Part shown: one piece after another, positions 2,045 through 48,391 of the stretch
Position numbering within the stretch: the stretch's first letter is position 1
How the letters are laid out: every line of letters starts with the position of its first letter
Source of the DNA: Bacillota bacterium
GTDB taxonomy: Bacteria; Sysuimicrobiota; Sysuimicrobiia; Sysuimicrobiales; Segetimicrobiaceae
Length of the DNA stretch: 54,057 nt
Direction of reading: 5' to 3'
NCBI GenBank assembly: GCA_021324295.1
Contig: JAJPJJ010000010.1
Location: 1 to 54,057 of the forward strand
Program-made: the position numbers and the translations under genes
The notes under the pieces: generated by a model
What the model was told of the DNA's origin: nothing
Seen by the model: only the letters and a program-made list of their open reading frames with translations
Databases searched by the model: none

Positions 2045-3640
2045 CTACTCGACGACGGCCTTGCCCTTTCCACTCCGCGGGTCCACCGCGCCCGTCAACC
2101 GGCCGGTCGCGGGATCCCGGTAGACCGCTGCTACACGGGCAGTATAGCCGGTCTCGCGAACGGTGTGCCCCAGGTCCCGCAGTTCCCGCGCGAGCGCGGA
2201 GGGAAACGTCCGCTCAACCATGATCGGACCGCACTCTTGGTGGATTCGCTCCGCGGCCAGCGCCGCCTCGATATCCATGCCGAAGTCGATCATGTTGACG
2301 AGCGTCTGCACGATTGCGGTCACCTTCCGTGGCCCCGCCGGGGATCCGATGGCCAGCACCGCGACGCCATCCCTTAACAGAATGGTCGGTGCGCCGCCGT
2401 TGACGGGGGACTTGCCCGGCGCGATCGAATTGCGGCGACCGGGCGTTGGGTCAAACGATTGCATATCGTTATTGAACATGAATCCCAGTCCAGGAACCAC
2501 AACGCCAGAACCGTCGCACACGGTGTGGGTGATAGCCGCGGCATTGCCCTCCTCGTCCATGACCGAGACGTGTGTTGTTCCCTCGTGTCCGCCGACGGAC
2601 TCCGCGGCACGCAGAGAGGCGCTCAGCAGGCCTGAGGCCACCTCCTGAGCGTACGCCTTCGACGTCAGCATGCCGACCGGCACGTCGATGAATCGGGGAT
2701 CAGCCATGTACCGTGCACGGTCGGCGAAGACGTGCCGGAAGGCGCGCGCTAAGAGATCGAGATACCTGGCGCTGTTCCATCCGAGCGACCGCAGATCGAA
2801 CCGTTCGAGGATATTGAGGATCTCGATGAGCAGGGCGCCGCTGCCGGGTGGCGGGTCCGACAGTAGCTCATAGCCACGATACGCACCGCGCAGCGCCTCG
2901 CCGGACAGAGATCGGTACCGCCGCAGATCGTCCAGAGTGAACAGCCCGCCGTGGGACAATACGTCGCGGGCGATCTCCTGCGCGATCTCGCCCTCGTAGA
3001 AGTCATCAGCACCGGTGCCGGCAAGGCGCTCCAAGGTGCGGGCGTAATCGCGCTGAACGAGACGCTCACCCGGCCGATACACGTCGCCGTCATGCGTGTA
3101 GATCGCTGCGCAGGCCGGGGTCGCGGTGAGCGTCTTCCACGGCGGCACCACGTCCTCTACCTGCGTGTCCCGGCGCCAGAAACTGTACAGGTACTCGTCG
3201 ACCGGAAATCCGTCGGCCGCGAGCCTAACCGCCGGCGCGATCAGTGCCGGCCAGGAAACCCGCCCACTCCCATACTGTACGTGCACTTGAAACATGCCGC
3301 GGACGAAGCCGGGGACGAGCACCGAGCGGTAGCCCACCTCGTTGGCCTGGTTTGCCACGGTCACGCGCTCGTTCCCATCCCGCCGTAACTCTCCCGCAAA
3401 CTCGTCCGGGCGGGCCTTCGAGCCGGCCGTCCCCCAAAAACGGATCGACCCGGCACACCCCGCCGCAGCGCTGAAAACGGTCATCACGCCATTGCCACCG
3501 ATGCCCGAGAGCTTCGGCCCAACGACGCCCTGCGCGAATGCCGTCGCGATCGCCGCGTCCACCGCGTTCCCGCCGGCTTTCAGGATCTCGGCACCCGCAA
3601 ACGCGGCCAGGTATTCCGGACACGTGACGACGCCGCGCAT
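2045..3640 (-). CDS. ggt: gamma-glutamyltransferase family protein (first paralogue)
   Basis: Ntn-hydrolase of the gamma-glutamyltranspeptidase family, 531 aa. The family cleaves gamma-glutamyl amides after autoprocessing at a threonine. Visible marks are the N-terminal GGNAVDAAIATAFAQ block, PGFVRGMF, the pre-cleavage region, GTTHVSVMDEEGNA with the expected nucleophile Thr355, and the small-subunit block ending AIGSPAGPRK. There is no signal peptide: the protein starts MRGVVTCPEY directly at the domain, unlike periplasmic E. coli Ggt, so it is probably cytosolic. It lies between an RraA-like gene and a permease pair, suggesting it acts on the imported compound. The exact donor substrate is unknown, and cephalosporin-acylase-like activity is possible. 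Confidence 0.9.
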   Translation of the reverse strand: MRGVVTCPEYLAAFAGAEILKAGGNAVDAAIATAFAQGVVGPKLSGIGGNGVMTVFSAAAGCAGSIRFWGTAGSKARPDEFAGELRRDGNERVTVANQANEVGYRSVLVPGFVRGMFQVHVQYGSGRVSWPALIAPAVRLAADGFPVDEYLYSFWRRDTQVEDVVPPWKTLTATPACAAIYTHDGDVYRPGERLVQRDYARTLERLAGTGADDFYEGEIAQEIARDVLSHGGLFTLDDLRRYRSLSGEALRGAYRGYELLSDPPPGSGALLIEILNILERFDLRSLGWNSARYLDLLARAFRHVFADRARYMADPRFIDVPVGMLTSKAYAQEVASGLLSASLRAAESVGGHEGTTHVSVMDEEGNAAAITHTVCDGSGVVVPGLGFMFNNDMQSFDPTPGRRNSIAPGKSPVNGGAPTILLRDGVAVLAIGSPAGPRKVTAIVQTLVNMIDFGMDIEAALAAERIHQECGPIMVERTFPSALARELRDLGHTVRETGYTARVAAVYRDPATGRLTGAVDPRSGKGKAVVE

Positions 3641-3765: not shown

Positions 3766-4452
3766 TCACGAGATAACGCAGCCGAGTTCCACGAGCTTCG
3801 TCGTGATGTTCTCAACGTTGGTGATCTCACCGCGCGCCAGCACGGGCTGCAGCTGGACGTGGGCGGCCTTGCCTTTCTCCACCAGGGCGAGGACCTCGTC
3901 CACCGCCGCCGGCGGGACCACGGCAACGCCGTCGCGGTCGGCGATGATGATGTCGCCGGGGTTCACCACGACACCACCGCAGGCGATCGGCACGTTGACC
4001 TCGCCAGCGCCGTACACGGATCCACCCCTCGGCGTTACGCCGCGGGCGTACACCGGGAGGCCGGTCGCTCGCGTCTCCTCGACGTCACGTACTGCCCCAT
4101 CGACAATCACGCCGGCGAGTCCGCGCGCGCGGAGCCCTCGGCAGACGTTGCCCCCGGTCAGACCGGAGGTGAGGTCGCCGCGGGCGTTGATGACCAGAAC
4201 GTCCCCGGGGCGCGTTTGCTGCGCCCCGAGCTTGAAGAGGTGGAAATGCGTGCATCGCGGGATGCTGACCGTGACCGCGGGTCCGATGATCGGTGCCATC
4301 GGCTCGTAGATGGGCCGGATCCCAGGATCCATGATGTTGGCGTCGTGCATCGCGTCCGCGAGATCGGCGGACGAGAGGCCCTCGAATCGTGCAACTGTCT
4401 TCGCGTCTGGGCGCGTGATGGCCGTGATCACGCGGAATCCCAACCCGTACAT
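3766..4452 (-). CDS. RraA-like / 4-hydroxy-4-methyl-2-oxoglutarate aldolase family protein
   Basis: A 228-aa member of the RraA/HMG-aldolase family. Enzymatic members are Mg-dependent class II aldolases or oxaloacetate decarboxylases that release pyruvate; others bind RNase E. The family signature VIVDGAVRDVEE is present with Arg122 and Asp123 in the substrate/metal positions, as is the glycine-rich GGNVCRGLRARG. The metabolic neighbourhood (two HpcH/HpaI aldolases upstream, gamma-glutamyltransferase downstream) argues for the aldolase role rather than RNase inhibition. The ATG at 4452 has a strong GGGAGGGG ribosome site. The 125 bp between it and the next gene show nothing recognisable. Confidence 0.88.
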   Translation of the reverse strand: MYGLGFRVITAITRPDAKTVARFEGLSSADLADAMHDANIMDPGIRPIYEPMAPIIGPAVTVSIPRCTHFHLFKLGAQQTRPGDVLVINARGDLTSGLTGGNVCRGLRARGLAGVIVDGAVRDVEETRATGLPVYARGVTPRGGSVYGAGEVNVPIACGGVVVNPGDIIIADRDGVAVVPPAAVDEVLALVEKGKAAHVQLQPVLARGEITNVENITTKLVELGCVIS

Positions 4453-4503: not shown

Positions 4504-5283
4504 CTATTGATGACGAGGCGCCGATTCGCGCATCGCATCGGCCATCGACGCGAGCGCGCGGATCACCAGACCGGTCAGGCTGCAGTCAAGCATGCGGTAG
4601 CCGCGCTTCAAGTAGTCGGCGGCCGCCTTCGGATCGTTCGTCGTGTCGCCGATGACCTTGCCGGCGCCTAGAACCCGGTTCACAATAGCATCAATCGCCG
4701 CGAGCACCTCTGGGCGGCTGGTCTCCCCAGGATACCCCATCGACTGGGACAGATCGGCCTGCCCCAGTTCAAAGACGTCGATGCCGTCGACCTGGAGGAT
4801 TCCATCCAGGTGCGGCATCGCGTCGATGTTCTCGATCTGCACCAGCACCATGGTCTCGTCGTTGGCCCGGCGAGTATAGTCGCCCAGCGACGTCCGGTAG
4901 CCGTACGAGGCTGCGCGGGAGCCGGCGAGGCCGCGGCGCCCCCGCGGCGCGTACTTCACCGCCTGCACGGCGCGCTCCGCATCCCCGACCGTGTTGACCT
5001 GCGGGACCATGATGCCCTGGACACCGATGTCCAGGTAGCGGAGAATCAGCTTCTCGTTGTTTTCGGGCACCCGCACGATCGGCGTCAAATTCATGCACTC
5101 GGCCGCCCGCACCAGATCCTCACAGATCGCCGGTTCGACCGCCCCATGCTCAGCGTCGATCAGCACGTAGTCAAAGCCCGCGAGCCCCGCCCACTCGACC
5201 AAACGGGGAGTCGCCATCGGGATGAAGACCCCGAAGACGCACCCGCCCTCGCGCAATTTCTGCTTGGTCAGATTAGGGCGCAC
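4504..5283 (-). CDS. HpcH/HpaI family class II aldolase (paralogue 1)
   Basis: A (beta/alpha)8 pyruvate-class aldolase, 259 aa, which would reversibly cleave 4-hydroxy-2-oxo acids to pyruvate and an aldehyde. Residues line up with E. coli HpaI: His46 (DAEHGAVE), Arg71 (RVPENN), metal ligands Glu151 (QIENIDAM) and Asp177 (GQADLSQSMG). The GTG start at 5283 was chosen because it follows AGAGAGG by about 11 nt and gives the same N-terminus as the two paralogues (NLTKQKLREGG). The longer open frame runs into the GntR gene. It lies between a GntR regulator and the RraA-like aldolase. The true hydroxy-oxo-acid substrate is not predictable. Confidence 0.9.
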   Translation of the reverse strand: MRPNLTKQKLREGGCVFGVFIPMATPRLVEWAGLAGFDYVLIDAEHGAVEPAICEDLVRAAECMNLTPIVRVPENNEKLILRYLDIGVQGIMVPQVNTVGDAERAVQAVKYAPRGRRGLAGSRAASYGYRTSLGDYTRRANDETMVLVQIENIDAMPHLDGILQVDGIDVFELGQADLSQSMGYPGETSRPEVLAAIDAIVNRVLGAGKVIGDTTNDPKAAADYLKRGYRMLDCSLTGLVIRALASMADAMRESAPRHQ

Positions 5284-5336
5284 ACACCCGCCACCTCTCT
5301 TCTGGCGAGATCCATCGCCGCGCGCTGGCGCTGATC

Positions 5337-6008
5337 CTACGATCCCGACGTCGCCATGTTCAGCATTCGAGCGATACGCCGTTCGCCGGATTCGAGGGCC
5401 GCCACCAGGGCCCGGCGCGCCCCCCTCGCATCGCGCCGGCGCAGCGCGGCGGTCACCGCCTGATGCTCTCGCTGCATGGCCTTGATGTCGTGAGATTGAG
5501 CGACCGTGGACGTGATGATGCGTCGCATATCGTCGAGCAGGCCGGCGATGGCCCGCAGCAGCCGGCTGTTGCCGCTTGCTTCCGCGATCCCGAGGTGAAA
5601 GTCGCGGTTGACCTTCACGAAGCGAGCGTAGCCCTCGGGGTCCCGGGACGGAAACACCATGCGCGCGAGACACTCCAGGTGCGCCAACTGCTCTTCGGTG
5701 ATTCGTTGCGCAGCCAGTTCGGCCGCCGCACCTTCCAGCACCCGGCGCAGGAAGAGCACCTCTGCGACGTCTTGGAGACCGAGCGGGGTAACGGTGTACC
5801 CCCGGCGACCGTCGGCGCTGACAAGCCCCTGCTCCTGCAGGCGCGCCAACGCATAGCGCACCGGCGTGCGGCTGCCGCCGAAGCGTTCCACAAGGGTGCG
5901 CTCCGAGAGAGTCTGCCCGGGCTTGAGCTGCCCTGACACAATGCCGGCCTTAAGCCGCCGGTACAGCGTGACGCCCAACGCGCGACTGTCGTCCCGAGCC
6001 GTCGCCAC
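5337..6008 (-). CDS. GntR-family transcriptional regulator, FadR/FCD subfamily
   Basis: DNA-binding repressor or activator of 223 aa. The N-terminal winged helix-turn-helix occupies roughly residues 12-75 (LYRRLKAGIVSGQLKPGQ, then SERTLVERFGGSRTPVRYAL). The C-terminal FCD ligand domain contains NRDFHLGIAEASGN and REHQAVTAALRRRD, with histidines at expected metal positions. The GTG start at 6008 has AGAGGGGAG upstream. It sits between two HpcH/HpaI aldolase genes with short gaps, so it is co-transcribed with them. FCD regulators often bind organic acids and recognise TGGT-NN-ACCA type palindromes, which makes it the best local candidate for the paired operator-like sites at 11251 and 14946 (inference). 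Confidence 0.9.
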   Translation of the reverse strand: MATARDDSRALGVTLYRRLKAGIVSGQLKPGQTLSERTLVERFGGSRTPVRYALARLQEQGLVSADGRRGYTVTPLGLQDVAEVLFLRRVLEGAAAELAAQRITEEQLAHLECLARMVFPSRDPEGYARFVKVNRDFHLGIAEASGNSRLLRAIAGLLDDMRRIITSTVAQSHDIKAMQREHQAVTAALRRRDARGARRALVAALESGERRIARMLNMATSGS

Positions 6009-6022
6009 TTGCTCCCCTCTGA

Positions 6023-6805
6023 TCAGCCCGCGGGGAATTGGGCCCGAACATCTTCCACGAGCGTTCGGAGCGCGCGCGTCGCGGTACCGACGAAGCTGCA
6101 GTTCATCATGCGGTACCCCCGGGCCACGAGCATCTTGGCCTCCTGCGGGCTCCCGACGGTATCGCTGACCACCCGGCCGGCGTCCAGAATCGCCGCCACC
6201 GCCAGCTCGACCGCAGCTTCCACCTTGGGGTGCGTCACCTCGCCGGGCAACCCCATCGACAGAGATAGATCGCCACGCCCGATCTCATACGCGTCGATGC
6301 CCGGGACCGCCACGATGTCCCGCACCCGTGCCATGGCATCCACTTCTTCCAGCATGGCGATGAGCAGCATCTCCCGATTGGCGTGGCTGACCCAATCGCG
6401 GCGGTGCAGCCGCATGCCGTAGGCTGCGGCGCGCTGCGAGCCCGCGCCTCGCCTGCCCAGTGGCGGGTAGCGAACCGCGGCCACAGCACGCTCCGCATCC
6501 TCACGCGAATTCACGTGCGGGACCATGATGCCCTGCGCGCCGGCGTCCAGAAGGCGCAGGATCGTCGCCAGCTCCGCGGTCGATACACGAACCACCGGCG
6601 TCAGCTCGACAACCTCGGCGGCGCGAATGAGGTTCTCACACTCGGCGACGTCGATCGCGCCGTGCTCCATGTCGAGGATCGCGAAATCGAAGCCGGCGAT
6701 GCCGCAGAGCTCCACGAGTCCAGGCTCGGCGAACGGCACGAAGATCCCGAAAACGGTGCCGCCGGTTGCCAGTTTCCGTTTCGTCACGTTCTCGCGAATG
6801 CGCAC
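6023..6805 (-). CDS. HpcH/HpaI family class II aldolase (paralogue 2)
   Basis: A 260-aa pyruvate-class aldolase paralogous to 4504-5283. The catalytic set is complete: His48 (DMEHGAID), Arg73 (VVRVSTAE), Glu153 (MLEEVDAM) and Asp179 (GRGDLSLSMGLPGE). The GTG at 6805, with TTAGGGAA upstream, gives an N-terminus (MRIRENVTKRKLATGG) matching the sister proteins. Extending the frame upstream would overlap the binding-protein gene ending at 6817. Only 14 bp separate it from the downstream GntR gene. Two aldolases around one regulator suggest two related oxo-acid intermediates or two enantiomers. Confidence 0.9.
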   Translation of the reverse strand: MRIRENVTKRKLATGGTVFGIFVPFAEPGLVELCGIAGFDFAILDMEHGAIDVAECENLIRAAEVVELTPVVRVSTAELATILRLLDAGAQGIMVPHVNSREDAERAVAAVRYPPLGRRGAGSQRAAAYGMRLHRRDWVSHANREMLLIAMLEEVDAMARVRDIVAVPGIDAYEIGRGDLSLSMGLPGEVTHPKVEAAVELAVAAILDAGRVVSDTVGSPQEAKMLVARGYRMMNCSFVGTATRALRTLVEDVRAQFPAG

Positions 6806-6816
6806 GGCGTCGTTCC

Positions 6817-8322
6817 CTAACGCAGGATTGCCCGATTGAGATCGAAAAGGATGTCGGACCCCGACCGGGGCTCCCACACCACTCGCCGGTTGACGCCATA
6901 GGGTCCGAGCACCGCCACGCCGTACAGCCACGGTGCTTCGTCGACGAGCAGGTCGATCACCTTCCCGTAGATCGCCTTGCGCTTCGCAGGATCACCTTCC
7001 ACACGGCCGGCCTCGAACAGCTTGGTCAGCTCGGGGTTGCTGTAGAAGTGCGCGCCCCGCGACGGCTCGAAGTGGAACCCCACATCGTCGAGTTGATGAT
7101 ACAAGGACACGAATCCCCACAGGCCCATTTGCCACTTGGAGGTGCGCTGTCTCGCGCCGTACTGGCTCCACTCGTAGGTCTGCAACGTGGCCCGCACGCC
7201 GACGCGCTGCAGATACCCGACGACTGCCTGGGCGATTTCCTTGTCCTGGAAGTAGCGGCCGTTCGGGCTCTCGACCGTCAGGTCGAGGCCGTTGCCGTAC
7301 CCCGCTTCGCCCAACAGCTGTTTCGCCCTCGCGGGATCGTACGGGTACGCGTTGACCGGCTTGTACCCGAACATGTACGGCATCGCCGGTTCGGCAACGC
7401 GCCGGCCGTACCCTCCCATGATGCTCCTAATGATGGCGTCCCAGTCGACCGCGTAGTTCAGCGCCTGGCGGACGCGCCTATCATCGAACGGTTTCTGGTT
7501 TGTATTGAAGATGAAAAACTCCATGCGCCCGGTCTCTTTCGCGACGATTCTAAGCTTCGGATCCTGCCTGACGGCGGGCAGCTGGTCGGGCGACAAGTTG
7601 ACGGCGACGTCGACCTCACCGGACCGCAGGGCAGCGGCCCGCGTCGCGCTCGATGGGATTGGCTTGATGATGATGCGGTCGACTTTCGGCCGCCCTGCCC
7701 AGTAATGGTCGGACGCCTCCAACAGCACGTGGTCGTCGGGGATCCACTCCACAAGGCGGTAGGCACCTGCGCAAATCGGGTGCCGCGCAAATTCCGCGTC
7801 GCCGAGTCTCGCGACCGCCTGTTGCGGAACCGGAAAGACGTACGGCATCTGATAGACGAAGCCGGCGTACGGCACCTTGAGGTGGAACCGCACCACGGTC
7901 GGATTGAGGATCTCGGTGCCCTTGACGATATCCACAAAGTCCGTCGCGTCCAGCGCATTGAACTTCGGATCGAGGAAGCGGTCCATCGTGAACTTGACAT
8001 CGGCGGCGGTGACCGGCGTCCCGTCCTGGAACTTCGCGTTGGGCCGCAGGGTAAAATCGTATGTCACAGGATCGACCGCCTTCCACGAAGTGGCGAGCGC
8101 CGCAACAAGGTTCCAGTTCTTATCGTAGTTCACGAGCGGATCACACATTTGGAAGTACACGCTGTAGTCGACGCCGGTGTCACCCTTCAGTGGATCCCCG
8201 CTCAGGATATCCGCGCCCTGGGCGACCACGAACTGCGCGCCCGCGGGCGCTGACAATGCGGGCATCCACGTAGCGATGCCTACCACCAGCGCAGCCGCCA
8301 CACCTGCCTGTATGTACCGCAC
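6817..8322 (-). CDS. ABC transporter substrate-binding protein, family 5
   Basis: Exported binding protein of 501 aa for an oligopeptide-type importer. A Sec signal peptide covers about residues 1-29 (MRYIQAGVAAALVVGIATWM, cleavage near PAGA-QF) and has no lipobox cysteine. The SBP_bac_5 fold shows KFQDGTPVTAADVKF near residue 97, the late motif RVRQALNYAVDWDAI, and YPYDPARAKQLLGEAGY. The GTG start at 8322 has AAGGGGGG upstream. It lies between a gamma-glutamyltransferase gene and an aldolase gene, and its permeases are probably those at 243-2038. Family members bind peptides, opines, nickel or glutathione; the ligand cannot be told here. Confidence 0.92.
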   Translation of the reverse strand: MRYIQAGVAAALVVGIATWMPALSAPAGAQFVVAQGADILSGDPLKGDTGVDYSVYFQMCDPLVNYDKNWNLVAALATSWKAVDPVTYDFTLRPNAKFQDGTPVTAADVKFTMDRFLDPKFNALDATDFVDIVKGTEILNPTVVRFHLKVPYAGFVYQMPYVFPVPQQAVARLGDAEFARHPICAGAYRLVEWIPDDHVLLEASDHYWAGRPKVDRIIIKPIPSSATRAAALRSGEVDVAVNLSPDQLPAVRQDPKLRIVAKETGRMEFFIFNTNQKPFDDRRVRQALNYAVDWDAIIRSIMGGYGRRVAEPAMPYMFGYKPVNAYPYDPARAKQLLGEAGYGNGLDLTVESPNGRYFQDKEIAQAVVGYLQRVGVRATLQTYEWSQYGARQRTSKWQMGLWGFVSLYHQLDDVGFHFEPSRGAHFYSNPELTKLFEAGRVEGDPAKRKAIYGKVIDLLVDEAPWLYGVAVLGPYGVNRRVVWEPRSGSDILFDLNRAILR

Positions 8323-8370: not shown

Positions 8371-9993
8371 TCACCCGCCGGCCCCGCCCTCCTGCGGCGG
8401 CCACGATCCGACGCCAGCCCCGCCGCGCGGATCCGGACCGGCTTCGAGCAGCCTCGTATCGGACCGCACGAGAATCGCCTGCACGCGGGCCATGTAGGCG
8501 CTGCGTTGCACCTCGTTGCCCATTTCGCGCAGCGCCGCGGCGGTTCGTTCCGGAAACTGCGGTTCCATGAAGATGAGCTGTCGCTCCTCGCTGTGAAACC
8601 GCGGCGCCGTGACGGCCGTTCGCATGTCCATCTGGAAATCCACGACGTTGACGATGGCCTGCTGGATGGAGCTGTAGAGCCGGCTGCCGCCGGGCGATCC
8701 GACCGCGATATACGGGGCGCCGTCTCGGAAGACGATCGTGGCGATGACACCGGCGAGCCGCTTGTGCGGCTCGATGGAGTCGCTCCGCCCCGGCAGCGGA
8801 TTGAAGTGGCCGAGAAAATTGTTGTAGATGAACCCCAATCCCGGGGTGACAGTGCCCGATCCGCCGATCGATCCAATGCTGTGGTTGATGCCGACGGCGT
8901 TCCGCCCGCTGTCCACACACGTCAAGTGCGTCGTCCCGGAGAGGACCGTGCCGCCCTCCACGGCGATCCTGTCGCCCCGCCGGATCCGCTCGGCCCAATA
9001 GCGGGCGCGCTGCGGCGAGGTCAGCTCGTCTTCGACGGCTACGGCCGCCTTGAGCTCCAGGCCTTTGAGACGTGCGTAATCTGCAAATGCGGCGCGCTGC
9101 GCGCGTGCGGACAGATCGACGTACTCCGGTGAGTTGTGTCCCAGGCGCCTGAGCTCGAAGTGCTCCAGGATCTGAAGCATCTCGATAATGTTCGCCCCGG
9201 ACGTCACCTCATGCCCGCGGTACGCGCCACGGGCCATCTGCTGCTCTAGGACCGGAAAGGTCCGAATGTCGTCGCGGGTGAGCAGGCCCTCGTGCGCCTC
9301 GAAATCGTCGGCGATAGCGCGGCCGATCTCGCCGTCATAGAAATCATCACCACCAGCCGCCGCGAGCCGCGCGATCGTCCGCGCCAGGTCCGCCTGTACG
9401 AACCGGTCCCCTTCCTCGTACCGGCGTCCGTCGCGGCGGAAGAAGATGCGCTGCGCCTCAGGACTGGCGCGCAGCTTCCGCTCGAGACTCGGATAGGCGG
9501 GCCGCTCCTCCGTGCTGCGCCAGAACCCGGCGATGTACGGAAAGACCTCGAACCCTTCTTCCGCGAGCCGCTGCGCCGGTCGTAGGATATCCCGCCACGA
9601 GAGGCGGCCGCTGCCGAATCGCCGAAATGCCTCCCACATGCCGCGCACGAAGCCGGGGACGATGACCGCCTGGTGACCGATCTGGTTCGGATCGCCGGCA
9701 ACCACGTACCGGCCGATGGTTTCCGTGCGTCCCCCGAAGCCGGCGCGCCACGAGTCGGGCACGGGCCGGGAGCCGATGGCGCCCTCGAAGTCGAGCAGGA
9801 CGTGGCGTCGGGTCCGCGCTTCGTAGTAGTACAAGTGCCCTGTCCCGCCGAGCCCACACAGCAGCGGGTTGGTCACCGCCTGCGCGAACGCGACGGCAAC
9901 CGCCGCGTCGATCGCGTTGCCGCCGGCCGCGAAGATGTCTTGCCCGGCCTTCGCGGCCGGCGGTTCGGGGCACACCACCATACTGTCGACCAT
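8371..9993 (-). CDS. ggt: gamma-glutamyltransferase family protein (second paralogue)
   Basis: Second Ntn-hydrolase of the Ggt family in this block, 540 aa. It has GGNAIDAAVAVAFAQ, VPGFVRGMWEAFRRFGSGR, the autocleavage motif SGTTHLTCVD with nucleophile Thr354, and AVGSPGGSRLYSS in the small subunit. The start at 9993 was chosen because its ATG overlaps the stop of the small upstream gene (TGATG) and aligns with the first paralogue. The open frame continues upstream but is not protein-like there. There is no signal peptide, so a cytosolic location is likely. The tail is glycine/proline-rich (DPRGGAGVGSWPPQEGG). It differs from the first paralogue around the cleavage site, suggesting a different acceptor or substrate. 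Confidence 0.88.
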   Translation of the reverse strand: MVDSMVVCPEPPAAKAGQDIFAAGGNAIDAAVAVAFAQAVTNPLLCGLGGTGHLYYYEARTRRHVLLDFEGAIGSRPVPDSWRAGFGGRTETIGRYVVAGDPNQIGHQAVIVPGFVRGMWEAFRRFGSGRLSWRDILRPAQRLAEEGFEVFPYIAGFWRSTEERPAYPSLERKLRASPEAQRIFFRRDGRRYEEGDRFVQADLARTIARLAAAGGDDFYDGEIGRAIADDFEAHEGLLTRDDIRTFPVLEQQMARGAYRGHEVTSGANIIEMLQILEHFELRRLGHNSPEYVDLSARAQRAAFADYARLKGLELKAAVAVEDELTSPQRARYWAERIRRGDRIAVEGGTVLSGTTHLTCVDSGRNAVGINHSIGSIGGSGTVTPGLGFIYNNFLGHFNPLPGRSDSIEPHKRLAGVIATIVFRDGAPYIAVGSPGGSRLYSSIQQAIVNVVDFQMDMRTAVTAPRFHSEERQLIFMEPQFPERTAAALREMGNEVQRSAYMARVQAILVRSDTRLLEAGPDPRGGAGVGSWPPQEGGAGG

Positions 9994-10208
9994 CAACGCA
10001 GCCACATTGGAGAGAGGTCGTCCTCGCTGGGATTGGCTACGTAGCCCGCGACATTGCGCCTGACGATCGGCGTATCCGGATCCCCTGCGATCCCACAGGT
10101 CAGCGCGCGGGGTGCGGCCGCCCATCCGGTCCCGCCTTGCGGCCACACGAGGTACCCTATCGCCAGCACGCTGACGAGGCAGACGGTCGTCCGCACATGT
10201 CGCGGCAA
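9993..10208 (-). CDS. small exported protein of unknown function
   Basis: A 71-aa frame from TTG at 10208 (GAGG 8 nt upstream) to TGA at 9993; a GTG at 10196 is an alternative start. The N-terminus, PRHVRTTVCLVSVLAIGYLV, is a good Sec signal: basic, then hydrophobic, with possible cleavage near GWAAA. The mature part is about 38 residues with one cysteine (ALTCGIAGDPDTPIVRR) and resembles no family I recognise. It begins 17 bp after one gene's stop and its stop shares a base with the ATG of the gamma-glutamyltransferase (TGATG). That placement supports a real translated gene, though a decayed remnant is possible. Confidence 0.5.
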   Translation of the reverse strand: MPRHVRTTVCLVSVLAIGYLVWPQGGTGWAAAPRALTCGIAGDPDTPIVRRNVAGYVANPSEDDLSPMWLR

Positions 10209-10224: not shown

Positions 10225-11184
10225 CTACTGCGCCCTCTCGAAATCGTAAAACACCTCCGCGGCATCGACACGCCTGGAAACGAGGCCTTGTGCCAGCAAC
10301 TCGTCACACAGCGCCTGAATCATCCCCGCGTTCGCCGGCACGCCACTCGGATTCCAATCGCGTCCGAGCAGCGCCTGGGAGACCTCGATCTCCGCGATGA
10401 GCCATGGCGTCATCTCGGTCAACTCGTTGATCCGATCGAGCCACCGCCTCTTGGAGGCTTCGAGCGCCGTGTAGAGGCTGCGCGCTGTCGGGGGGTTCTT
10501 CTCGAAGACCGCTGTGCGGATGCCGACGATGTGGTGCGCAGGATACACCTTGGTGCGGCGGTAGTACTCGCGCTCCGCCGATGCGTAATCCGACAGGAGC
10601 CTGACGATGGGGCTGTCCGGCGCGTAGAACCCCGCCGGCGGGTCGGGCACCATCAACGCGTCGAGCTCCTCGTTCAGTAGCATCTCGCGCAGCGTGCGGC
10701 CGGCCGGCACGGGATGAACATTGCGGGGCAGCGCGCCCTGCGGGCGCGTGGAGGGCGCCCCGTCCACGGGCCCCACCGTCCACTCGATGTCCTGAATCGA
10801 GACGCCTTGCTCCCGGAGGGCTGCCCGGCTCCACGTGTTGCCCGTCGCCGGCCATTCGTTGGTGCCAATACGGCGGCCCCGAAGGTCCGCGAGCGTGCGA
10901 AGGTTGCTGCCACGCCGCACGAAGAAGCACCGATGCCGGAACGCGCGCACGACGAAGAACGGGATGCCGACGAAGCTCCGGTCGCCCTCCGCAATCCGGA
11001 TAATGTGGCGGCTGAACGAGAGCTCCCCCGCGTCCACCGACGAGTCGGTGAGCGTGCGGTTCAGCGCCGTCTCCGTCGACCGCACAAACGCAAGATCGAT
11101 GCCGCCCGGCGTGACATCGCCCGCGGCGAGCGGCCCGAGATAGTCGTAATCCTTCGTGAGAAGCGTCAACCTCTGTCGGGACAT
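10225..11184 (-). CDS. 4,5-dihydroxyphthalate decarboxylase-like / NMT1-superfamily periplasmic-binding-fold protein
   Basis: A 319-aa protein with the type II periplasmic-binding fold. It resembles proteins annotated as 4,5-dihydroxyphthalate decarboxylase: DYDYLGPLAAGDVTPGGIDL at the start, then DAGELSFSRHIIR, FFVVRAFRHRCFFVRR, LRGRRIGTNEW, and PAHHIVGIR late. There is no signal peptide, so it probably acts in the cytosol as an enzyme or ligand sensor rather than as a transporter component. The start at 11184 has GAGGTG 7 nt upstream and excludes an arginine-rich extension. It is the first gene after the operator-like site at 11251, hence probably the first gene of the operon running to 243. 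Decarboxylase activity is unproven for most members. Confidence 0.75.
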   Translation of the reverse strand: MSRQRLTLLTKDYDYLGPLAAGDVTPGGIDLAFVRSTETALNRTLTDSSVDAGELSFSRHIIRIAEGDRSFVGIPFFVVRAFRHRCFFVRRGSNLRTLADLRGRRIGTNEWPATGNTWSRAALREQGVSIQDIEWTVGPVDGAPSTRPQGALPRNVHPVPAGRTLREMLLNEELDALMVPDPPAGFYAPDSPIVRLLSDYASAEREYYRRTKVYPAHHIVGIRTAVFEKNPPTARSLYTALEASKRRWLDRINELTEMTPWLIAEIEVSQALLGRDWNPSGVPANAGMIQALCDELLAQGLVSRRVDAAEVFYDFERAQ

Positions 11185-11250: not shown

Positions 11251-11272
11251 TGGTATACCATCTAAAATACCA
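11251..11272. promoter_or_regulatory. operator-like site 1 (paired with 14946-14967)
   Basis: A 22-bp site made of the perfect 10-bp palindrome TGGTATACCA followed, after six bases, by ATACCA. The outer arms TGGTAT and ATACCA also form an inverted repeat. It stands about 67 bp upstream of the start at 11184 in AT-richer DNA between two operons. The same 22 bp with a single substitution (T to C at position 13) occur at 14946-14967 upstream of another operon. The TGGT-AT-ACCA core fits the half-site logic of FadR/FCD GntR proteins, and such a gene lies at 5337-6008. Confidence 0.6.
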
Positions 11273-11311
11273 GTCCCGCCCCTAAAATCCTTCCCAGGCG
11301 GACGGGGCGCG

Positions 11312-12205
11312 TCAGCGCAGTCGCGGATCGAGAAGATCCCGGACCTGGTCGCCGACGATGTTAAGGCTCAACAGCGTGGCCGCCAGGACGCTGCCCGGCA
11401 GCGCGGCCGTCCACCAGGCGCTGGCGAGGTATCCGCGCGCTTCACCCAGCATCGCTCCCCACTCGGGCGTGGGCGGCTGTGCGCCGAGCCCGAGGAAGCT
11501 TAACGATGCGCCGATCAAGATGGCCTCGGCGAACCCCAGCGTCGCCAGCACCAGCACTGTGTGCCGGATGTTGGGAAACAGGTGGCGCCACAGGATGCGG
11601 TAGCCCGGCACGCCCACCGCCTCGGCCGCCTCGACGTACAGTCGGTGGCGGACCCCAAGGGCGGAACTGCGGACGACACGGGCGAACGTCGGAGCCTGTC
11701 CGAACCCCACCGCGATCGTCGCTTGTCCGAGGCCGGGCCCGAGCAGCGCCACTACGATCAGCGCCAGAAGAATGCCCGGGAATGCCATCAGCACGTCCAC
11801 AAGGCGCATCACCAGGCGGTCGAAACGCCCGCCGTAGTAGGCCGCGAACGCGCCGACGATGGCGCTGGCCGCAATGCTGATGCTGGTGGCGAACAACGCG
11901 AACCGGAGTGATGTCCGGGCGCCGTACGCCACGCGGCTCAGTACGTCACGGCCGTACTCGTCGGTGCCGAACGGATGGCTGAGCCCGGGCGGCGCCAAGA
12001 TCAAGCTGCCTTGAATCAGCGTCGGATCGTACGCCGATACGAGCCGTGGACACACCGCAACGGCGGCGACGACGAGAATGAACATCGCCGCCGGTCCGCT
12101 CACGCCGCGGAACCGGCCGACGAAGCGCCGGACCCGCCGGCGGCCGAGCGTCCGATCGGGACGCCTCGAAACCGTGGACTCCACGGAAGCGGCCGCTCCC
12201 GTCAC
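11312..12205 (-). CDS. peptide-type ABC transporter permease, DppC-like
   Basis: Inner-membrane permease of 297 aa. After a basic N-terminus there is a membrane segment near residue 40. It then shows HPFGTDEYGRDVLSRVAYGA, several hydrophobic segments, an EAA loop (YVEAAEAVGVPGYRILWRHL) and a C-terminus QVRDLLDPRLR. The GTG start is at 12205. It lies 7 bp after the partner DppB-like gene and is the last gene of the block headed by the binding protein at 13206-14927. The 127 bp downstream of its stop hold operator-like site 1. The substrate is unknown. Confidence 0.92.
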   Translation of the reverse strand: MTGAAASVESTVSRRPDRTLGRRRVRRFVGRFRGVSGPAAMFILVVAAVAVCPRLVSAYDPTLIQGSLILAPPGLSHPFGTDEYGRDVLSRVAYGARTSLRFALFATSISIAASAIVGAFAAYYGGRFDRLVMRLVDVLMAFPGILLALIVVALLGPGLGQATIAVGFGQAPTFARVVRSSALGVRHRLYVEAAEAVGVPGYRILWRHLFPNIRHTVLVLATLGFAEAILIGASLSFLGLGAQPPTPEWGAMLGEARGYLASAWWTAALPGSVLAATLLSLNIVGDQVRDLLDPRLR

Positions 12206-12212
12206 GTCCGGT

Positions 12213-13136
12213 TCACTGGAAGCGGACCCGTGGATCGATGCACGCGTAGAGCAGATCCGTTGCCAGGTTCGTCAGCGTGTAGACTACGGCGATCACGAGG
12301 ACCGCACCCTGCACGACAGGAAAATCCTTATGCAGGATTCCTTCAACGAGGAAGCGGCCCAAGCCGTTGCGGCCGAACACCGTCTCGGCGACCACCGCCC
12401 CGCTCAGGAGGATGCCGAACTGCATCATGGCGAGCGTCAGCGTCGGGATCAGCGCGTTCCGCAGCACGTGCCGGCGCAGCACCGTCCGCTCGCGCAACCC
12501 TTTGGCGCGGGCGACGCCGACATATTCCTGCTGCAGGACTTCGAGGATCTCGCTGCGAACCAACCGCGCGAGCGCCCCGGCCGGGTACCAGCCCAGCGTG
12601 ATCGCCGGCATGATCAGCGTCCGGAGGCCCCCTTCACCGCTCGTCGGAAGCCAACGCAGCTGAACCGAGAGAAGAAAGATCAGCAAGATGCCGATCCAGA
12701 ACGTCGGCATGGAGACCCCGATGACGGCGAAGGCAGTCACCATCGAGTCGAGCCAGCGGCCCCGCTGTACCGCGGCGACGGCGCCGGCGACGCCTCCTGC
12801 CGTCGCCGCGATGATCATCGCGGCGACGGCCAGCGAGAGCGTGGACGGGATCGCTCCCTGCAGCTCCCGTACCACCGGGACATTCGACCGAAACGAGCGG
12901 CCGAGATCGCCGCGCAGCAGCCTCGCCATCTCATCGGCGAGCTGTACGACGAGCGGTCGATCGAACCCCATTTGATGTCGGATGATATCCATCTGTTCCT
13001 TCGGCATGGGGGAGTCGCCCTCGAGCGCCTTCACGGGATCGCCCGGGATCAGATGAATCATCAGCGACACCGCAAAGACGACGCCAACGAGCACGAACAC
13101 GCCGTGCAGGAGGCGCGACAGCAAGAACGCGCTCAT
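12213..13136 (-). CDS. peptide-type ABC transporter permease, DppB-like
   Basis: Partner permease of the previous gene, 307 aa from ATG 13136 (MSAFLLSRLLHGVFVLVGVV). A GTG at 13178 would add 14 basic residues and cannot be excluded, because neither start has a good ribosome site. Family marks are LIPGDPVKALEG, HQMGFDRPLVVQLADEMARL, an EAA loop (YVGVARAKGLRERTVLRRHV) and the ending LYACIDPRVRFQ. It lies 69 bp after the binding-protein gene, in the usual order of binding protein, B, C. No ATPase gene follows. Confidence 0.92.
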   Translation of the reverse strand: MSAFLLSRLLHGVFVLVGVVFAVSLMIHLIPGDPVKALEGDSPMPKEQMDIIRHQMGFDRPLVVQLADEMARLLRGDLGRSFRSNVPVVRELQGAIPSTLSLAVAAMIIAATAGGVAGAVAAVQRGRWLDSMVTAFAVIGVSMPTFWIGILLIFLLSVQLRWLPTSGEGGLRTLIMPAITLGWYPAGALARLVRSEILEVLQQEYVGVARAKGLRERTVLRRHVLRNALIPTLTLAMMQFGILLSGAVVAETVFGRNGLGRFLVEGILHKDFPVVQGAVLVIAVVYTLTNLATDLLYACIDPRVRFQ

Positions 13137-13205
13137 AGATCGCCGCGTGCGCGGGATGCCCGGTCGACGAAACACCACATCATCGGTCCATCGGCACCAT
13201 ACGCA

Positions 13206-14927
13206 TCATCGGGCCAGCCATGCGTCGTGGAGCCAGGGGAAGAACCCTACCGCATCGAAGCGCAGATCCTGGACCTTGGCAGACATCAGCGTCGCGTTGT
13301 CGCGGGTGGTGACCGGCAGCAGGTAGGCCATGGCCATAATGCGCCGTTGTGCCAGCTTGTACAGGTTCTCCCGTTTGGTGAGGTTCACTTCAGCAGCGCC
13401 GTCGTCCAGCAGCCTATCGAGGACGGGATCCTTCACGAAATCGTAGTTGTCGCCCGTGCCGCCTGAGAGCCCCGGGATGTTCCGCGAGTGGAACGAGTCC
13501 GAGAGGATATCGGGATCTGTGCGCGCCGCCGGGATAGGCGACATGTGCGAGTCCTGCTTTTCTTGCGCGGCGTTCACGGACGACGTATCGCGCACGCCCA
13601 CTTTGAGATCGACGCCGATGGCCCGAAGCTGGCTCTGCAGGACCTCCGGGATACCGTGCTCCCACGAGTTGAGCACGATCTCAAGGCGTTTGCCATTCTT
13701 CTGCCGAATGCCATCGGGTCCAACTTTCCACCCGGCTCTGTCCAACAGATCCTTCGCCTTCGCAGGGTCGTAGTGGTAGATCTCCGATTGTTTGTCGTAA
13801 CTCCACGTTCCCGGCACGAGCGCACCGTACGCCGGCTCAAACGCGTGGTAGGACTGATACGCACCGTACACGATGCTCGCGATGGCTGGCCGATCGATCC
13901 CATAATTGATGGCCTGCCTGACCGCGACCTCGTCCGTCGGCGGCTTCGTCACGTTGATCGCCCAGCACCATCCCATGCCCGGGGAGCGGCCGATGACCGG
14001 CTTGAAACGGGGGTCGCCGTTGAGCCGCCTGAAATCCTGCGCCGGAGTGGCGGTAATCACGTGAACCTCCCCAGATTCAAGCGCCGCGACACGCGTGGCC
14101 GGCTCCGGAATCATCCGGAACACCACGCGATCGAGAAGCGCCTGGCCCGTTCGGCTGAAGATCGACGGTGTCGAGGCGTAGTTGGGATTGCGCTCCAGAA
14201 CGACCTGCTGATTCTCCACCCACTCGACAAGACGGAAGGGGCCGGACCCGACCGGGTGCCGCCCGAAATCCTTGTCGCCGACTTTCCGGACGCCTGCGGG
14301 CGAGACCATCCGGTACGAGAAGCTCAACGCATCCAGGAACGGACCCCACGGCGACTTCAGATGAACCCGCACCGTCAGGGGGTCGACGACCTCGGAGGAG
14401 TCGTAGAACCCCACTGCCGTAGGCGTGGCTTGGCTGGCCAATGCGGGGTTATGCACGCGATCGAAATTGAACTTCACGGCTTCCGCGTTGACCGGGGTGC
14501 CGTCGTGGAACGTGACTCCCGGACGCAGACGGAACGTGTACGTTCTGCCGTCGGCAGAGACATCCCACGATCTGGCCAGCCACGGTTTGAACTTGTTGTC
14601 GGACTTGTCCCGGACGATGAGCGGATCGAAAATCTGGTAGAAGACGATCTCGTTGACCCGGTGCGCGTCCAGGTTGGGGTCGAGCTTTGTAATGGGCTGG
14701 TCGACAGCGTATACCAATGCGCCCCCGGTCCGAGGTGTGATCGCGAAGACTCGGTTCCCGGTCGCCCCGAGCCGGTTCGAAAGTGCGCCGCGCCCGGCAA
14801 CACCAGCCCCAAGCACGGCTGCCGTTGTTAGGAAACGGCGGCGCGAAACTCTATGACGGCCGCCGGCCTGCGCTGGCCCGTTGTTCTCATGCTCCCCTGT
14901 GCGTGCCGGCCCTGACCTACCCCGCAT
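13206..14927 (-). CDS. ABC transporter substrate-binding protein, family 5, Tat-exported
   Basis: Binding protein of 573 aa. A twin-arginine signal is visible at about residues 27-46 (SRRRFLTTAAVLGAGVAG), implying export in folded form; no lipobox follows. SBP_bac_5 marks are FRLRPGVTFHDGTPVNAEAV, a GRHPVGSGPFRLVEW block and RVAALESGEVHVI. The ATG at 14927 was chosen because GGGAGGGGG lies about 5 nt upstream; the longer open frame would translate the operator-like site at 14946. It heads the operon with permeases 12213-13136 and 11312-12205. The ligand is unknown. Confidence 0.9.
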   Translation of the reverse strand: MRGRSGPARTGEHENNGPAQAGGRHRVSRRRFLTTAAVLGAGVAGRGALSNRLGATGNRVFAITPRTGGALVYAVDQPITKLDPNLDAHRVNEIVFYQIFDPLIVRDKSDNKFKPWLARSWDVSADGRTYTFRLRPGVTFHDGTPVNAEAVKFNFDRVHNPALASQATPTAVGFYDSSEVVDPLTVRVHLKSPWGPFLDALSFSYRMVSPAGVRKVGDKDFGRHPVGSGPFRLVEWVENQQVVLERNPNYASTPSIFSRTGQALLDRVVFRMIPEPATRVAALESGEVHVITATPAQDFRRLNGDPRFKPVIGRSPGMGWCWAINVTKPPTDEVAVRQAINYGIDRPAIASIVYGAYQSYHAFEPAYGALVPGTWSYDKQSEIYHYDPAKAKDLLDRAGWKVGPDGIRQKNGKRLEIVLNSWEHGIPEVLQSQLRAIGVDLKVGVRDTSSVNAAQEKQDSHMSPIPAARTDPDILSDSFHSRNIPGLSGGTGDNYDFVKDPVLDRLLDDGAAEVNLTKRENLYKLAQRRIMAMAYLLPVTTRDNATLMSAKVQDLRFDAVGFFPWLHDAWLAR

Positions 14928-14945
14928 ACGTCCCCCTCCCGCCTG

Positions 14946-14967
14946 TGGTATACCATCCAAAATACCA
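14946..14967. promoter_or_regulatory. operator-like site 2 (paired with 11251-11272)
   Basis: A 22-bp site: TGGTATACCA palindrome, six bases, then ATACCA. It is identical to the site at 11251-11272 except for one base in the spacer. It ends 19 bp upstream of the start codon of the Tat-exported binding protein, where a bound regulator would cover promoter or leader. Both sites have the same orientation relative to the downstream minus-strand operon. This is the best evidence in the window that the two transporter operons share a regulator. Confidence 0.6.
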
Positions 14968-19341: not shown

Positions 19342-20910
19342 CTACGTTCGCCGGATCCGCGCGACGATGATGCGCTCGTCCGTGCGTGGCGTCATCTGGA
19401 TGTTGCGGCGGAGTCCGTAGATGTTGAAGATCGAGTACAGGAAGATGTACGGGGGGTCGTCATAAATCTCGCGTTGCAACCTCCGATAGATCTCGGCACG
19501 CTGTGACGAATTCATCGCCGACGCCGCGGCGTCGATCGCCTGGTCCCACTCCGCCTTGCCGTAGAACGTGTACGGCGACTTCGTATAGAGGATACCGCGC
19601 ACGAACGGCTCAGGGTCCAGAAAATCGGTTCCCCAGCTCCAGAAGAAGATCGGGGCAATCTGTCTTGCGCCTCGCATCTTCACCATCGTGCCGAGTTCCA
19701 ACGCCTTCAGGTCGACCTTGATCCCCACCTTGGCCAGATCTCCGACCATTGCCTGGCAGACGTCCACCGTGGCCGGAAGAATGAAGTTCGCGGGAACCTC
19801 CATGTTGATGGCGAAGCCATTGGGGTACCCTGCTTCCCGCAGGAGCGCCCGCGCCTTGTCGGGATTGTAGGGGTAAGGTTTGAGACCCTTGTCGTACGCG
19901 AAGGTCGTGGCCGGGAAGATCGTCGGGATGCGCGTCGACATCCCGTTCAGGACAAACTTCACAATGTTGTCCACATTCACCGCATAGTTGATCGCCTGCC
20001 GGACCCGCCTGTCGCGCAGCTCTCTCCCACCCTGGGGGCTCTCCGGCCAGAACTGACAATAGGCGATGCGGTCGCTCGTGACCGACGCCACCTTGGTCAT
20101 CGGATTCTGGCTCACCGTCTTCGCCTGGTCCGGGGCCAGGGGTGTGATCAGGTCCACCTCCCCTGCCTCCAACGCCGAGAGGCGGGTCGCCGGGTCGGGC
20201 ACGATCCGGAAGACGACGTTGCGTAGCGACGCGTTCTGGCCCCAGTAGTCATCGAACGCCTCCAGCTTCACGTAGCTATCTGGCACCCGCTCCACGAATC
20301 GGTACGGGCCGGAGCCGACCGGCTTGTTGATGAACCCCTGCTCGCCGACCTGCTCGTAGTAGCGCTGGGGCAGGACGAAGAACCTCACGAGACGCTGCGG
20401 GAGCACCGGATCCGGTTTCCGGGTGATCAGCCTGAACGTCCGGTCATCGATAACATCAACTCGCTCGAACGCCTGCCAGGTCACGTCCCGCTTGACGTCC
20501 GTTCGCAGCGCGTCCTGCACGTTCCACCGGATCGTCTCTGAGGTGAGCGGCTCGCCGTTATGAAATTTGATTCCCGGTCGCAGCGTGAACGTCCACTCGC
20601 GAGGACCGGTGTTGGCGTAGCGCTCGGCGAGCACCGGGACGAGCCGCATCGTGTCGTCCCGCTGAATGAGCGAGTCGAAGATGGCAAAGTGGAAGCTGCT
20701 ATCATCCGACCACAGCTCTCGGTGCGGGTTGATCTCGTGAAACTCGCTCGACTGCGCCAGCACGAGCCCGCCCGTGGCCCTTGGCCCCTTGGCTTCCGCC
20801 CCGCTGAGGAGGGCGATCCCCGGGCCTCCCCGGTGCCAGAACGTGGGAACGGCACCCGAGCCGATCGCGGCTCCGGTCGCACGCAGAAATGTACGCCGCG
20901 TGACCTTCAC
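19342..20910 (-). CDS. ABC transporter substrate-binding protein, family 5, Tat-exported
   Basis: Binding protein of 522 aa starting at GTG 20910. The N-terminus MKVTRRTFLRATGAAIGSGA is a clear twin-arginine signal (TRRTFLRA) with no lipobox. Fold marks include FTLRPGIKFHNGEPLTSETI, KPVGSGPYRFVERV, RLSALEAGEVDLITPLAPDQ and YPYNPDKARALLREAGYPNG. The start overlaps the stop of the upstream hydantoinase B subunit (GTGA), tying transport directly to the hydrolase genes. The imported ligand is presumably the substrate, or a precursor, of the hydantoinase/oxoprolinase. Confidence 0.92.
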   Translation of the reverse strand: MKVTRRTFLRATGAAIGSGAVPTFWHRGGPGIALLSGAEAKGPRATGGLVLAQSSEFHEINPHRELWSDDSSFHFAIFDSLIQRDDTMRLVPVLAERYANTGPREWTFTLRPGIKFHNGEPLTSETIRWNVQDALRTDVKRDVTWQAFERVDVIDDRTFRLITRKPDPVLPQRLVRFFVLPQRYYEQVGEQGFINKPVGSGPYRFVERVPDSYVKLEAFDDYWGQNASLRNVVFRIVPDPATRLSALEAGEVDLITPLAPDQAKTVSQNPMTKVASVTSDRIAYCQFWPESPQGGRELRDRRVRQAINYAVNVDNIVKFVLNGMSTRIPTIFPATTFAYDKGLKPYPYNPDKARALLREAGYPNGFAINMEVPANFILPATVDVCQAMVGDLAKVGIKVDLKALELGTMVKMRGARQIAPIFFWSWGTDFLDPEPFVRGILYTKSPYTFYGKAEWDQAIDAAASAMNSSQRAEIYRRLQREIYDDPPYIFLYSIFNIYGLRRNIQMTPRTDERIIVARIRRT

Positions 20911-22640
20911 GTGTCACCTCCCTGTGCGTTACGCGGGCGGCCGCCCGCCGTTCCGTGCCGCGGTCGCCGGCGTGAATGCGCTCCACTGTGGTGGCGGTCG
21001 CCTGCCGCATCGTCCCATCCGTAGACGCGCTTCGCCGCTCGCAACGTGACGTACCCTGCAGCGACGTCCCGGGCGATCCATCGAGGATCCCTGCGTCGCG
21101 GGTCGCCGAGACCGCCCCCTCCTGGAAGCCTCAGGACTAGCTCGCTCCCGGGCCGTAGGTTGAACGGCCCAGGCGCGAGCGGCCTGCCATCCAGCAGCAG
21201 CTCACCCGGAGCCCCTGGAGATCCCCCCAGCAACCCGGGCGCCGGGAACCGGATCTTGTCGGGGCGCACGGAGATCTGCACGGGATCCGCGCCGGTGGCG
21301 CGGAACGCGATTTCCTGGCCAAGCCCGCCCCGCCACACCCCTCCTCCTCCCGAATCAGGCCGTAGGGCCCGCCGGAGGACCAGGAGAGGGGCGTTGCTTT
21401 CGATGATTTCGGCGGGCGTAATGGTGCCGTTCCCAGGGAACGCGATCGTCGGCAAGCCGTCTCGGCCCGGCGTAGCGCCCTTGCCTCCGTTCGGCAAGAC
21501 GTGCGTGATGACAGGCTGGCCATCGTTGTCACGGCTCAGACAACGAAAGCTCCAGAAGGAACCGCTACCGGCCTGCACGCGGTCGGGTAGGGCATCGGCG
21601 AGGGCGGCGTAGATCGCGTTGTGGATATGGTAGCTGCTCTTGGACCTCGCCTTCACGGGCGCGGGGAAGCGCGCGTTGAAGATCGACCCCTCCGGGGCAT
21701 AGACGCTGATCGGTCGGAACAGCCCCTCATTGTTCGGCAGGTCCGGCGTCAGGCTGCACTTCAACGGGTAGATCGTGTGGGCATACGTAACGTTGAGGAC
21801 GCAGTTGACGCTCGCGGTGACCGATTGGGGAGATGACCCGGTGAAGTCGGCGTGGAGCGCGTCGCCCTCAACGATCACGGTCACATGGATCCGCAGGGGC
21901 TCCTGGAAGCCGTCCGCGATCGCTTCCCCGCGATACCGGCCCGAGGGGATGGCCCGGATCGCCCCGCGCATCGCCGCTTCAGACCGCGCCAGGATCTCAT
22001 CACATAGCGCCTGATATCCCTGCGGCCCATAGTCCGCCACGAACTCCTCGAACCGTTCGGCGCCCAGCTGGAACGCGCCCACAACAGCGCGGACGTCGCC
22101 GATGACGAGGCGAGGGACACGGACGTTGGCCTCGAGCACGCGAAACAGCTGTTCGTTCTCCTTCCCGGCGAGGAGGAGCTTGCTGGGCGGAATCCGCAGG
22201 CCCTCTTCGTACACGTCACGCGCCTCAAACTCATCGAGGCGGCCGCCGATGTCGCTGATGTGGACGGCAGCCGCCATGAACGCCGCCAGACGGTCCCCGG
22301 CAAAGAGCGGGCGGACGACGATGAAGTCGGGAAGGTGGCCGTGGGTGAGCCAGGGATCGTTGGTGATCAACACATCGCCGGAGACGAGCTCCGCCGGAGG
22401 GAACACCCGTAGAATGTATCGGGCGGCGAATGGTAGCGAGCAGGTGAATGCCGGCGAGGAGAGCTGCGACTGTGCGACCGAGCGCGCCTGGCCGTCGAGC
22501 AAAATGACGGCGAAGTCGCGTGTCTCTCCGACGATCGTGGAAAAGGAGGTGCGCACCAGCGCCGCGTCGACCTCGTCCATCACGGTGATCAGCCGACTCC
22601 ATCGCACCTGTAGGCCGATCGGATCGAGTTCGGGCACCAC
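20907..22640 (-). CDS. hyuB: hydantoinase B/oxoprolinase family protein (copy 1)
   Basis: Beta subunit of the hydantoinase/5-oxoprolinase/acetone-carboxylase superfamily, 577 aa, acting with HyuA in ATP-dependent opening of lactam-type rings. It has the HyuB N-terminus (MDEVDAALVRTSFSTIVGET), RDFAVILLDGQ, NDPWLTHGHLPDF, PLKCSLTPDLPNNEGLFRPI, GSGSFWSF and the glycine-rich LRLPGGGGLGDP near the end. Two adjacent GTG codons (22640, 22637) are possible starts. The last 35 or so residues are histidine/arginine-rich and unlike its neighbour. It overlaps the binding-protein gene by 4 bp and is a close paralogue of the next gene upstream. Confidence 0.93.
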   Translation of the reverse strand: MVPELDPIGLQVRWSRLITVMDEVDAALVRTSFSTIVGETRDFAVILLDGQARSVAQSQLSSPAFTCSLPFAARYILRVFPPAELVSGDVLITNDPWLTHGHLPDFIVVRPLFAGDRLAAFMAAAVHISDIGGRLDEFEARDVYEEGLRIPPSKLLLAGKENEQLFRVLEANVRVPRLVIGDVRAVVGAFQLGAERFEEFVADYGPQGYQALCDEILARSEAAMRGAIRAIPSGRYRGEAIADGFQEPLRIHVTVIVEGDALHADFTGSSPQSVTASVNCVLNVTYAHTIYPLKCSLTPDLPNNEGLFRPISVYAPEGSIFNARFPAPVKARSKSSYHIHNAIYAALADALPDRVQAGSGSFWSFRCLSRDNDGQPVITHVLPNGGKGATPGRDGLPTIAFPGNGTITPAEIIESNAPLLVLRRALRPDSGGGGVWRGGLGQEIAFRATGADPVQISVRPDKIRFPAPGLLGGSPGAPGELLLDGRPLAPGPFNLRPGSELVLRLPGGGGLGDPRRRDPRWIARDVAAGYVTLRAAKRVYGWDDAAGDRHHSGAHSRRRPRHGTAGGRPRNAQGGDT

Positions 22641-22658
22641 GCCCCTTCGCTCCCGCCG

Positions 22659-24470: not shown

Positions 24471-24488
24471 GCGGCGCCTCCCTTCCCC

Positions 24489-26588: not shown

Positions 26589-26651
26589 CGCCCCCCTCAC
26601 TGCGCCCCCGAGCGGCATCGCCGAAGATCGCCAAAAGCCGCCTGCACCTGA

Positions 26652-26875
26652 CCACGACACACTGTCGCGTCCCCTTTGCGTGACGTACCCCTCGGCCAGG
26701 TCCCGCTCGAGCGCCGCCGGATTTCGTTCCCCCGGCGGTCCGATCCCGCTCGGGCCACAACTCAAGACGGTCCCCGGCCGGAGCGTAAGAGTGCGCGGGT
26801 TGCGTCCGGCTCGTCCACGATCGTGATAGGCCGCCACCGGATCTCAAGATCGATTGGATGCAGCGCCTGCCGCAT
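26652..26875 (-). pseudogene. hyuB relic with large internal deletion
   Basis: The 224 bp between the RpiR gene and hyuA carry both ends of a hyuB gene but not its middle. From ATG 26875 one frame gives LHPIDLEIRWRP-ITIVDEPD, matching the HyuB N-terminus (copy 1: LDPIGLQVRWSRLITVMDEV). This frame stops after 36 codons. The next frame gives LTLRPGTVLS and then GPPGERNPAALERDLAEGYV, matching the HyuB C-terminus (copy 2: YGDPRERPVEQVIRDVVDGY). Roughly 1.5 kb of the gene is gone, with a frameshift at the junction. Its ATG still overlaps the RpiR stop as TGATG, so the original gene was coupled to the regulator. Confidence 0.75.
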
Positions 26876-27801: not shown

Positions 27802-27827
27802 CTCGACCCTGTTTGAAGGTTTCCTGG

Positions 27828-48331: not shown

Positions 48332-48391
48332 GCCGCCCGATTCCGCGCGGGCCGGAGGACTCCGGTCGGTCCGGCGAGAACCCGCTGTGAC

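Follow-up and report, generated by a model that had tools for sequence, protein, structure and literature searches.

Two near-identical 22-bp sequences stand at the heads of two importer gene sets in the stretch of DNA analyzed here (54,057 bp, hereafter the window, which is the entire contig C29 of a 4.02-Mb assembly of 129 contigs), and this raises the question of whether one regulator controls both and, if so, which. A direct read of the window gives TGGTATACCATCTAAAATACCA for site 1 (11251-11272) and TGGTATACCATCCAAAATACCA for site 2 (14946-14967). Both have the form TGGTATACCATC[T/C]AAAATACCA and are identical at 21 of 22 positions, with one substitution and equal orientation, which bears out the recurrence described by the first-pass annotation. 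The sites and the genes that follow them are arranged as listed here.

14946-14967, minus strand: operator-like site 2, before operon B; minus-strand sequence TGGTATTTTGGATGGTATACCA
13206-14927, minus strand: operon B gene 1, SBP_bac_5 solute-binding protein with a Tat-type SRRRFL signal, ATG 18 bp after site 2
11312-13178, minus strand: operon B genes 2-3, two ABC permeases
11251-11272, minus strand: operator-like site 1, before operon A; minus-strand sequence TGGTATTTTAGATGGTATACCA
10225-11184, minus strand: operon A gene 1, NMT1-like substrate-binding-fold protein (weak Pfam match)
8371-10146, minus strand: gene 2, gamma-glutamyltransferase-like (Pfam PF01019, 3.1e-101; under the NCBIfam equivalog cut-off)
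6817-8322, minus strand: gene 3, SBP_bac_5 peptide-type solute-binding protein
6023-6931, minus strand: gene 4, HpcH/HpaI aldolase
5337-6008, minus strand: gene 5, FCD-domain GntR regulator (FadR-subfamily type, 223 aa), the proposed repressor
4504-5334, minus strand: gene 6, HpcH/HpaI aldolase
3766-4452, minus strand: gene 7, RraA-like aldolase/decarboxylase
2045-3640, minus strand: gene 8, gamma-glutamyltransferase (Pfam, 4.8e-132; over the NCBIfam cut-off)
243-2038, minus strand: genes 9-10, two ABC permeases (1121-2038 and about 243-1118), after which the contig ends

Read along the genes, on the minus strand, both sites are TGGTATTTT[A/G]GATGGTATACCA, an arrangement that can be written TGGTAT-N6-TGGTATACCA, i.e., a palindrome with a third half-site 12 bp upstream. 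ATACCA-N6-ATACCA is present in each, and five of the six spacer bases are the same in both. Site 1 is located 66 bp before the likely start codon of operon A (ATG 11184), from which 46-56% identical homologues in the family align starting at residues 2-5, while site 2 lies 18 bp before the likely ATG of operon B at 14927, which itself follows GGGAGGGGG. The proximity of both sites to start codons therefore stands as first described, but the distances of 67 and 19 bp given previously are each one base too long. When the surroundings are compared by eye, the likeness stops at the borders of the 22-mer and the flanks are dissimilar, which shows that conservation is confined to these 22 bp and does not reflect a duplicated segment.

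Chance does not account for this recurrence, which had already been called very unlikely to arise that way. When up to three mismatches are allowed, the 22-mer is found in the window at the two sites only, against 0.00 expected from 100 dinucleotide shuffles, and TGGTATACCA with up to one mismatch is likewise restricted to them (0.16 expected). Seven TGGTAT half-sites occur in the window, counting both strands, and all but one of them belong to the two sites. The exception, GCGTATACCA (14707-14716, at 14711), is inside the binding-protein gene of operon B, some 230 bp from site 2 in the downstream direction, and is possibly an auxiliary half-site or a chance occurrence. The 20 largest families in the direct-repeat table of the window are mostly paralogous coding sequence. 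A genome-wide search, proposed as a check by the first-pass annotation, found the architecture restricted to the two operon heads: TGGTAT-N6-TGGTATACCA has two perfect matches, which are the sites themselves, none at one or two mismatches, and single, scattered matches at three, while exact TGGTATACCA occurs twice in the 4.02 Mb, both times in the sites. With zero further copies, a scattered repeat family is ruled out for the assembled genome. A literature search that had TGGTATACCA among its terms listed no publication with this sequence.

The same counts bear on the idea that the 22-mers are common core promoter elements resembling an extended -10 (TGnTAT), or that a piece of promoter was copied recently. 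The resemblance of TGGTATTTT to an extended -10 element and the closeness of the start codons speak in its favor. However, promoter elements should recur at many genes, whereas this sequence is found at two places only in 4 Mb, and a copied fragment sits poorly with a likeness that stops at the ends of the 22-mer. No matching -35 is seen on the gene strand, and the palindrome and the third half-site would be left unexplained, so that we consider a promoter origin very improbable. Neither site gave a sigma-70 promoter match on the gene strand, and the direction of control is consequently deduced from position. The genes flanking both sites share one strand and are separated by some 128 bp (128 bp from the end of operon B to the first ATG of operon A), and a search for intrinsic terminators in the two gaps holding the sites found none. 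Given this layout, site 1 may belong to a promoter within a longer transcription unit or cluster. The sites thus do lie in gaps at gene heads, as first described, but their placement between separate operons is less secure for site 1, which could be internal to a longer transcript.

Which regulator might bind these sites? The product of 5337-6008, encoded within operon A, combines an N-terminal GntR helix-turn-helix (HTH; PF00392, 5.7e-18) with a C-terminal FCD domain (PF07729, 2.5e-25), both above cut-off, and these Pfam domains place it in the FCD, or FadR-subfamily, group of GntR proteins. It reaches no cut-off of the curated equivalog models, scoring 79.9 bits against the NanR model PRK03837 (cut-off 260), and among solved structures it resembles FCD-GntR proteins including NanR, with low similarity. 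The operator consensus of the FadR subfamily is TKGT-N2/3-ACMA (PMC4494728). TGGT-AT-ACCA, with its 2-nt GT-AC spacing, fits it in both sites, in agreement with the previous suggestion that a TGGT-NN-ACCA core suits a FadR-type GntR. Extra half-sites, whose function was left open, have been described 7-12 nt from the palindrome center in 13 FadR-subfamily groups (PMC4494728), and the third half-site in the window occupies a comparable place, near the palindrome. A site near the regulator's own operon is a further shared trait. In contrast to the additional boxes of the FadR subfamily, which are weaker on average (PMC4494728), the extra half-site hexamer in the window is identical to the main ones.

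The repeats are also reminiscent of the operator of Escherichia coli NanR, another FCD-type GntR, which contains GGTATA repeats (PMC8012715), comparable to the TGGTAT direct repeats seen here. Several NanR dimers bind these repeats cooperatively via a 32-residue N-terminal extension, and the operators themselves are positioned downstream of where the polymerase sits (PMC8012715). This extension is absent from the product of 5337-6008, since its HTH match starts at residue 14. Further differences are the full palindrome in the window sites and the finding of no sialic acid genes in operons A or B, and the regular 12-bp period of the window sites may be another.

Support for the regulator comes from its orthologue. 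Among 43 genomes of the phylum, a clear orthologue (54-55% identity) was found only in G017, an incomplete Armatimonadetes groundwater MAG, the remaining homologues being 44% identical or less over aligned stretches. A profile of the two GntR sequences run against 386 genomes produced no further close orthologue, and a separate genome scan with their alignment recovered the same G017 contig and distant matches only. The orthologous gene (G017:C246, locus L043, 2247-2972, start ATG 2247) is preceded by TGGTAT-N6-TGGTAT at 2213-2230, which ends 16 bp before the ATG. An AGGTAT follows with the same 12-bp period, making three half-sites, TGGTATCCAGAC TGGTATCCAATA AGGTATCC, before the start codon, a layout that recalls NanR. 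These repeats (TGGTATCC) lack a perfect TGGTATACCA palindrome; the lone match to TGGTATACCA in G017 is within a coding frame and was taken as chance. In this one orthologue, from one incomplete genome, what is conserved next to the regulator is therefore the TGGTAT repeat of 12-bp period and not the full palindrome. The emphasis first placed on the palindrome underrated the direct repeat, which is the element in common with the orthologue. The recognition helices of the two proteins, SRTP[V/I]R[Y/H]ALARLQEQGL (SRTPVRYALARLQEQGL, SRTPIRHALARLQEQGL), are almost identical, and the Y/H position is occupied by E in 26 of 36 compared homologues. Across the repeats from the orthologue lies a divergent SBP gene, and downstream are an amidohydrolase-like gene (labeled by reading the sequence), an RraA homologue, an SBP and permeases. 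A comparison by eye with structure 7u5q suggests that, in both orthologues, another residue takes the place of a histidine late in the FCD domain, the third metal ligand, which may leave the usual metal site incomplete.

This genome and G017 together contain exactly three copies of TGGTAT-N6-TGGTAT, at the two window sites and at the GntR orthologue, against an expectation of about 0.01 per 4 Mb (first-order Markov model from the window), an improbability that is somewhat overstated since the 12-bp period was recognized after both sequences had been seen. A repeat directly before the sole orthologue found is nevertheless hard to attribute to chance. Phylum-wide, there are two further exact matches, which we set aside: one lies within a tandem repeat in G011 and the other is intergenic, near small ORFs, in G042. 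The backwards-pattern controls gave three matches across the phylum, a similar background. An intergenic TATACCATAGTAGATACCATAGTATACCC around position 598 of L098 (G042:C258) is a candidate repeat operator by small ORFs, with no adjoining GntR identified.

A different regulator could in principle own the sites, be it another FCD-GntR (e.g., 47630-48331), a MocR-type protein like Bacillus subtilis GabR or a member of an unrelated family. The genome encodes at least 12 further FCD-GntR homologues, and PMC4494728 cites GabR as a regulator with ATACCA direct repeats, the very hexamer that the window sites contain in direct orientation. However, unlike in the GabR case, the operon A and B genes include no MocR-type or other aminotransferase-fused regulator, the linked regulator being of FCD type with no aminotransferase-like C-terminal domain. 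Moreover, the TGGTAT pair at 12-bp spacing is absent upstream of the other FCD-GntR genes inspected in this genome and of the GntR genes by the orthologues of the operon B binding protein (SBP-B) in G005, G007 and G008; several of all these genes have other AT-rich sequences there. The repeat is thus present before the orthologue and missing from the remaining FCD-GntR genes that were inspected, which links the sites to the product of 5337-6008 and makes a different owner unlikely.

Elsewhere, TGGTAT or TTGTATAC elements are found near GntR genes in some more distant relatives (e.g., G001, G005, G008, G004 and G020), which would be in keeping with a family-wide preference for such half-sites. 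Distant FCD-GntR genes at loci L013, L015 and L016, across three genomes, have a common upstream element, ATGGTATGCAA...AAG(C/G)(A/C)CCGGTGTACCA, likely a separate conserved operator. The second FCD-GntR gene of the window (47630-48331, plus strand), whose product is 33-34% identical to that of 5337-6008, has a different AT-rich upstream sequence, TGATCATAAGAATTATTGTTGATCATG. A long minus-strand ORF (47678-51094) runs across part of this gene and is probably non-coding where the two overlap.

On this evidence, the two sites very probably serve to bind a repressor encoded in one of the two operons. That a single FadR-subfamily GntR, the product of 5337-6008, serves both operons, as proposed from the outset, is the best-supported assignment, backed by its Pfam domains and by the repeat at the start of its orthologue. 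We propose, with a probability of about 0.77, that the sites are its operators and define a local autoregulated regulon in which both importer operons are repressed until a ligand releases the regulator. A GntR dimer would recognize the palindrome TGGTATACCA, and the outer TGGTAT (12 bp upstream along the genes) would, as a third half-site, add affinity or accommodate a second dimer. Since the sites are close to start codons, the bound regulator would most likely repress both operon A and operon B (SBP-permease-permease), and the location of its gene within operon A implies negative autoregulation. A small, probably carboxylate-type molecule from the catabolism of the imported substrate might then release the repressor; position near start codons and knowledge of the family are what suggest both repression and release. 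Tentatively, the 12-bp TGGTAT direct repeat could instead be the primary recognition unit of the lineage, bound by adjacent dimers in a NanR-like way without the extension, the palindrome being secondary in this genome. Although it would be an ordinary kind of bacterial switch, this is a new, clearly resolved example in an uncultured lineage. The assignment of regulator, operators and targets connects two peptide-type importers with gamma-glutamyltransferase and aldolase genes, and makes the class of imported substrate testable via the regulator's ligand. The combination of a palindrome with a 12-bp direct repeat also offers a modest opportunity to examine how additional half-sites are used by FCD-GntR proteins.

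Conservation at orthologous operons, which was part of the original proposal, is divided: the repeat is present before the GntR orthologue, but the site is absent from the fetched flanks of the SBP-B orthologues (57-64% identity) in G005-G010, G017 and G036. No TGGTAT pair was found upstream of the NMT1-like homologues. The SBP-B result leaves site 2 as the sole support for control of operon B, which would then be lineage-specific, and is what favors a variant in which the regulator is the right one but acts as an activator, or controls operon A only, with site 2 weak or a relic. Yet site 2 is no less intact than site 1 (21/22), and 18 bp before an ATG is a typical position for repression, so that this variant is quite unlikely. 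Since those genomes, G017 excepted, lack a GntR of the 5337-6008 type, absence of the site before SBP-B orthologues is better read as rewiring than as refutation of control by this GntR.

The window contains another SBP-permease-permease module, which, with an AstE/AspA-like gene, adjoins a hydantoinase cluster (20907-26837, minus strand) in which a Hydantoinase A gene precedes two tandem Hydantoinase B paralogues with about 70% DNA identity in blocks. Upstream of this cluster, an RpiR-type regulator (HTH_6 and SIS domains; 26875-27852, minus strand) is a candidate for its control.
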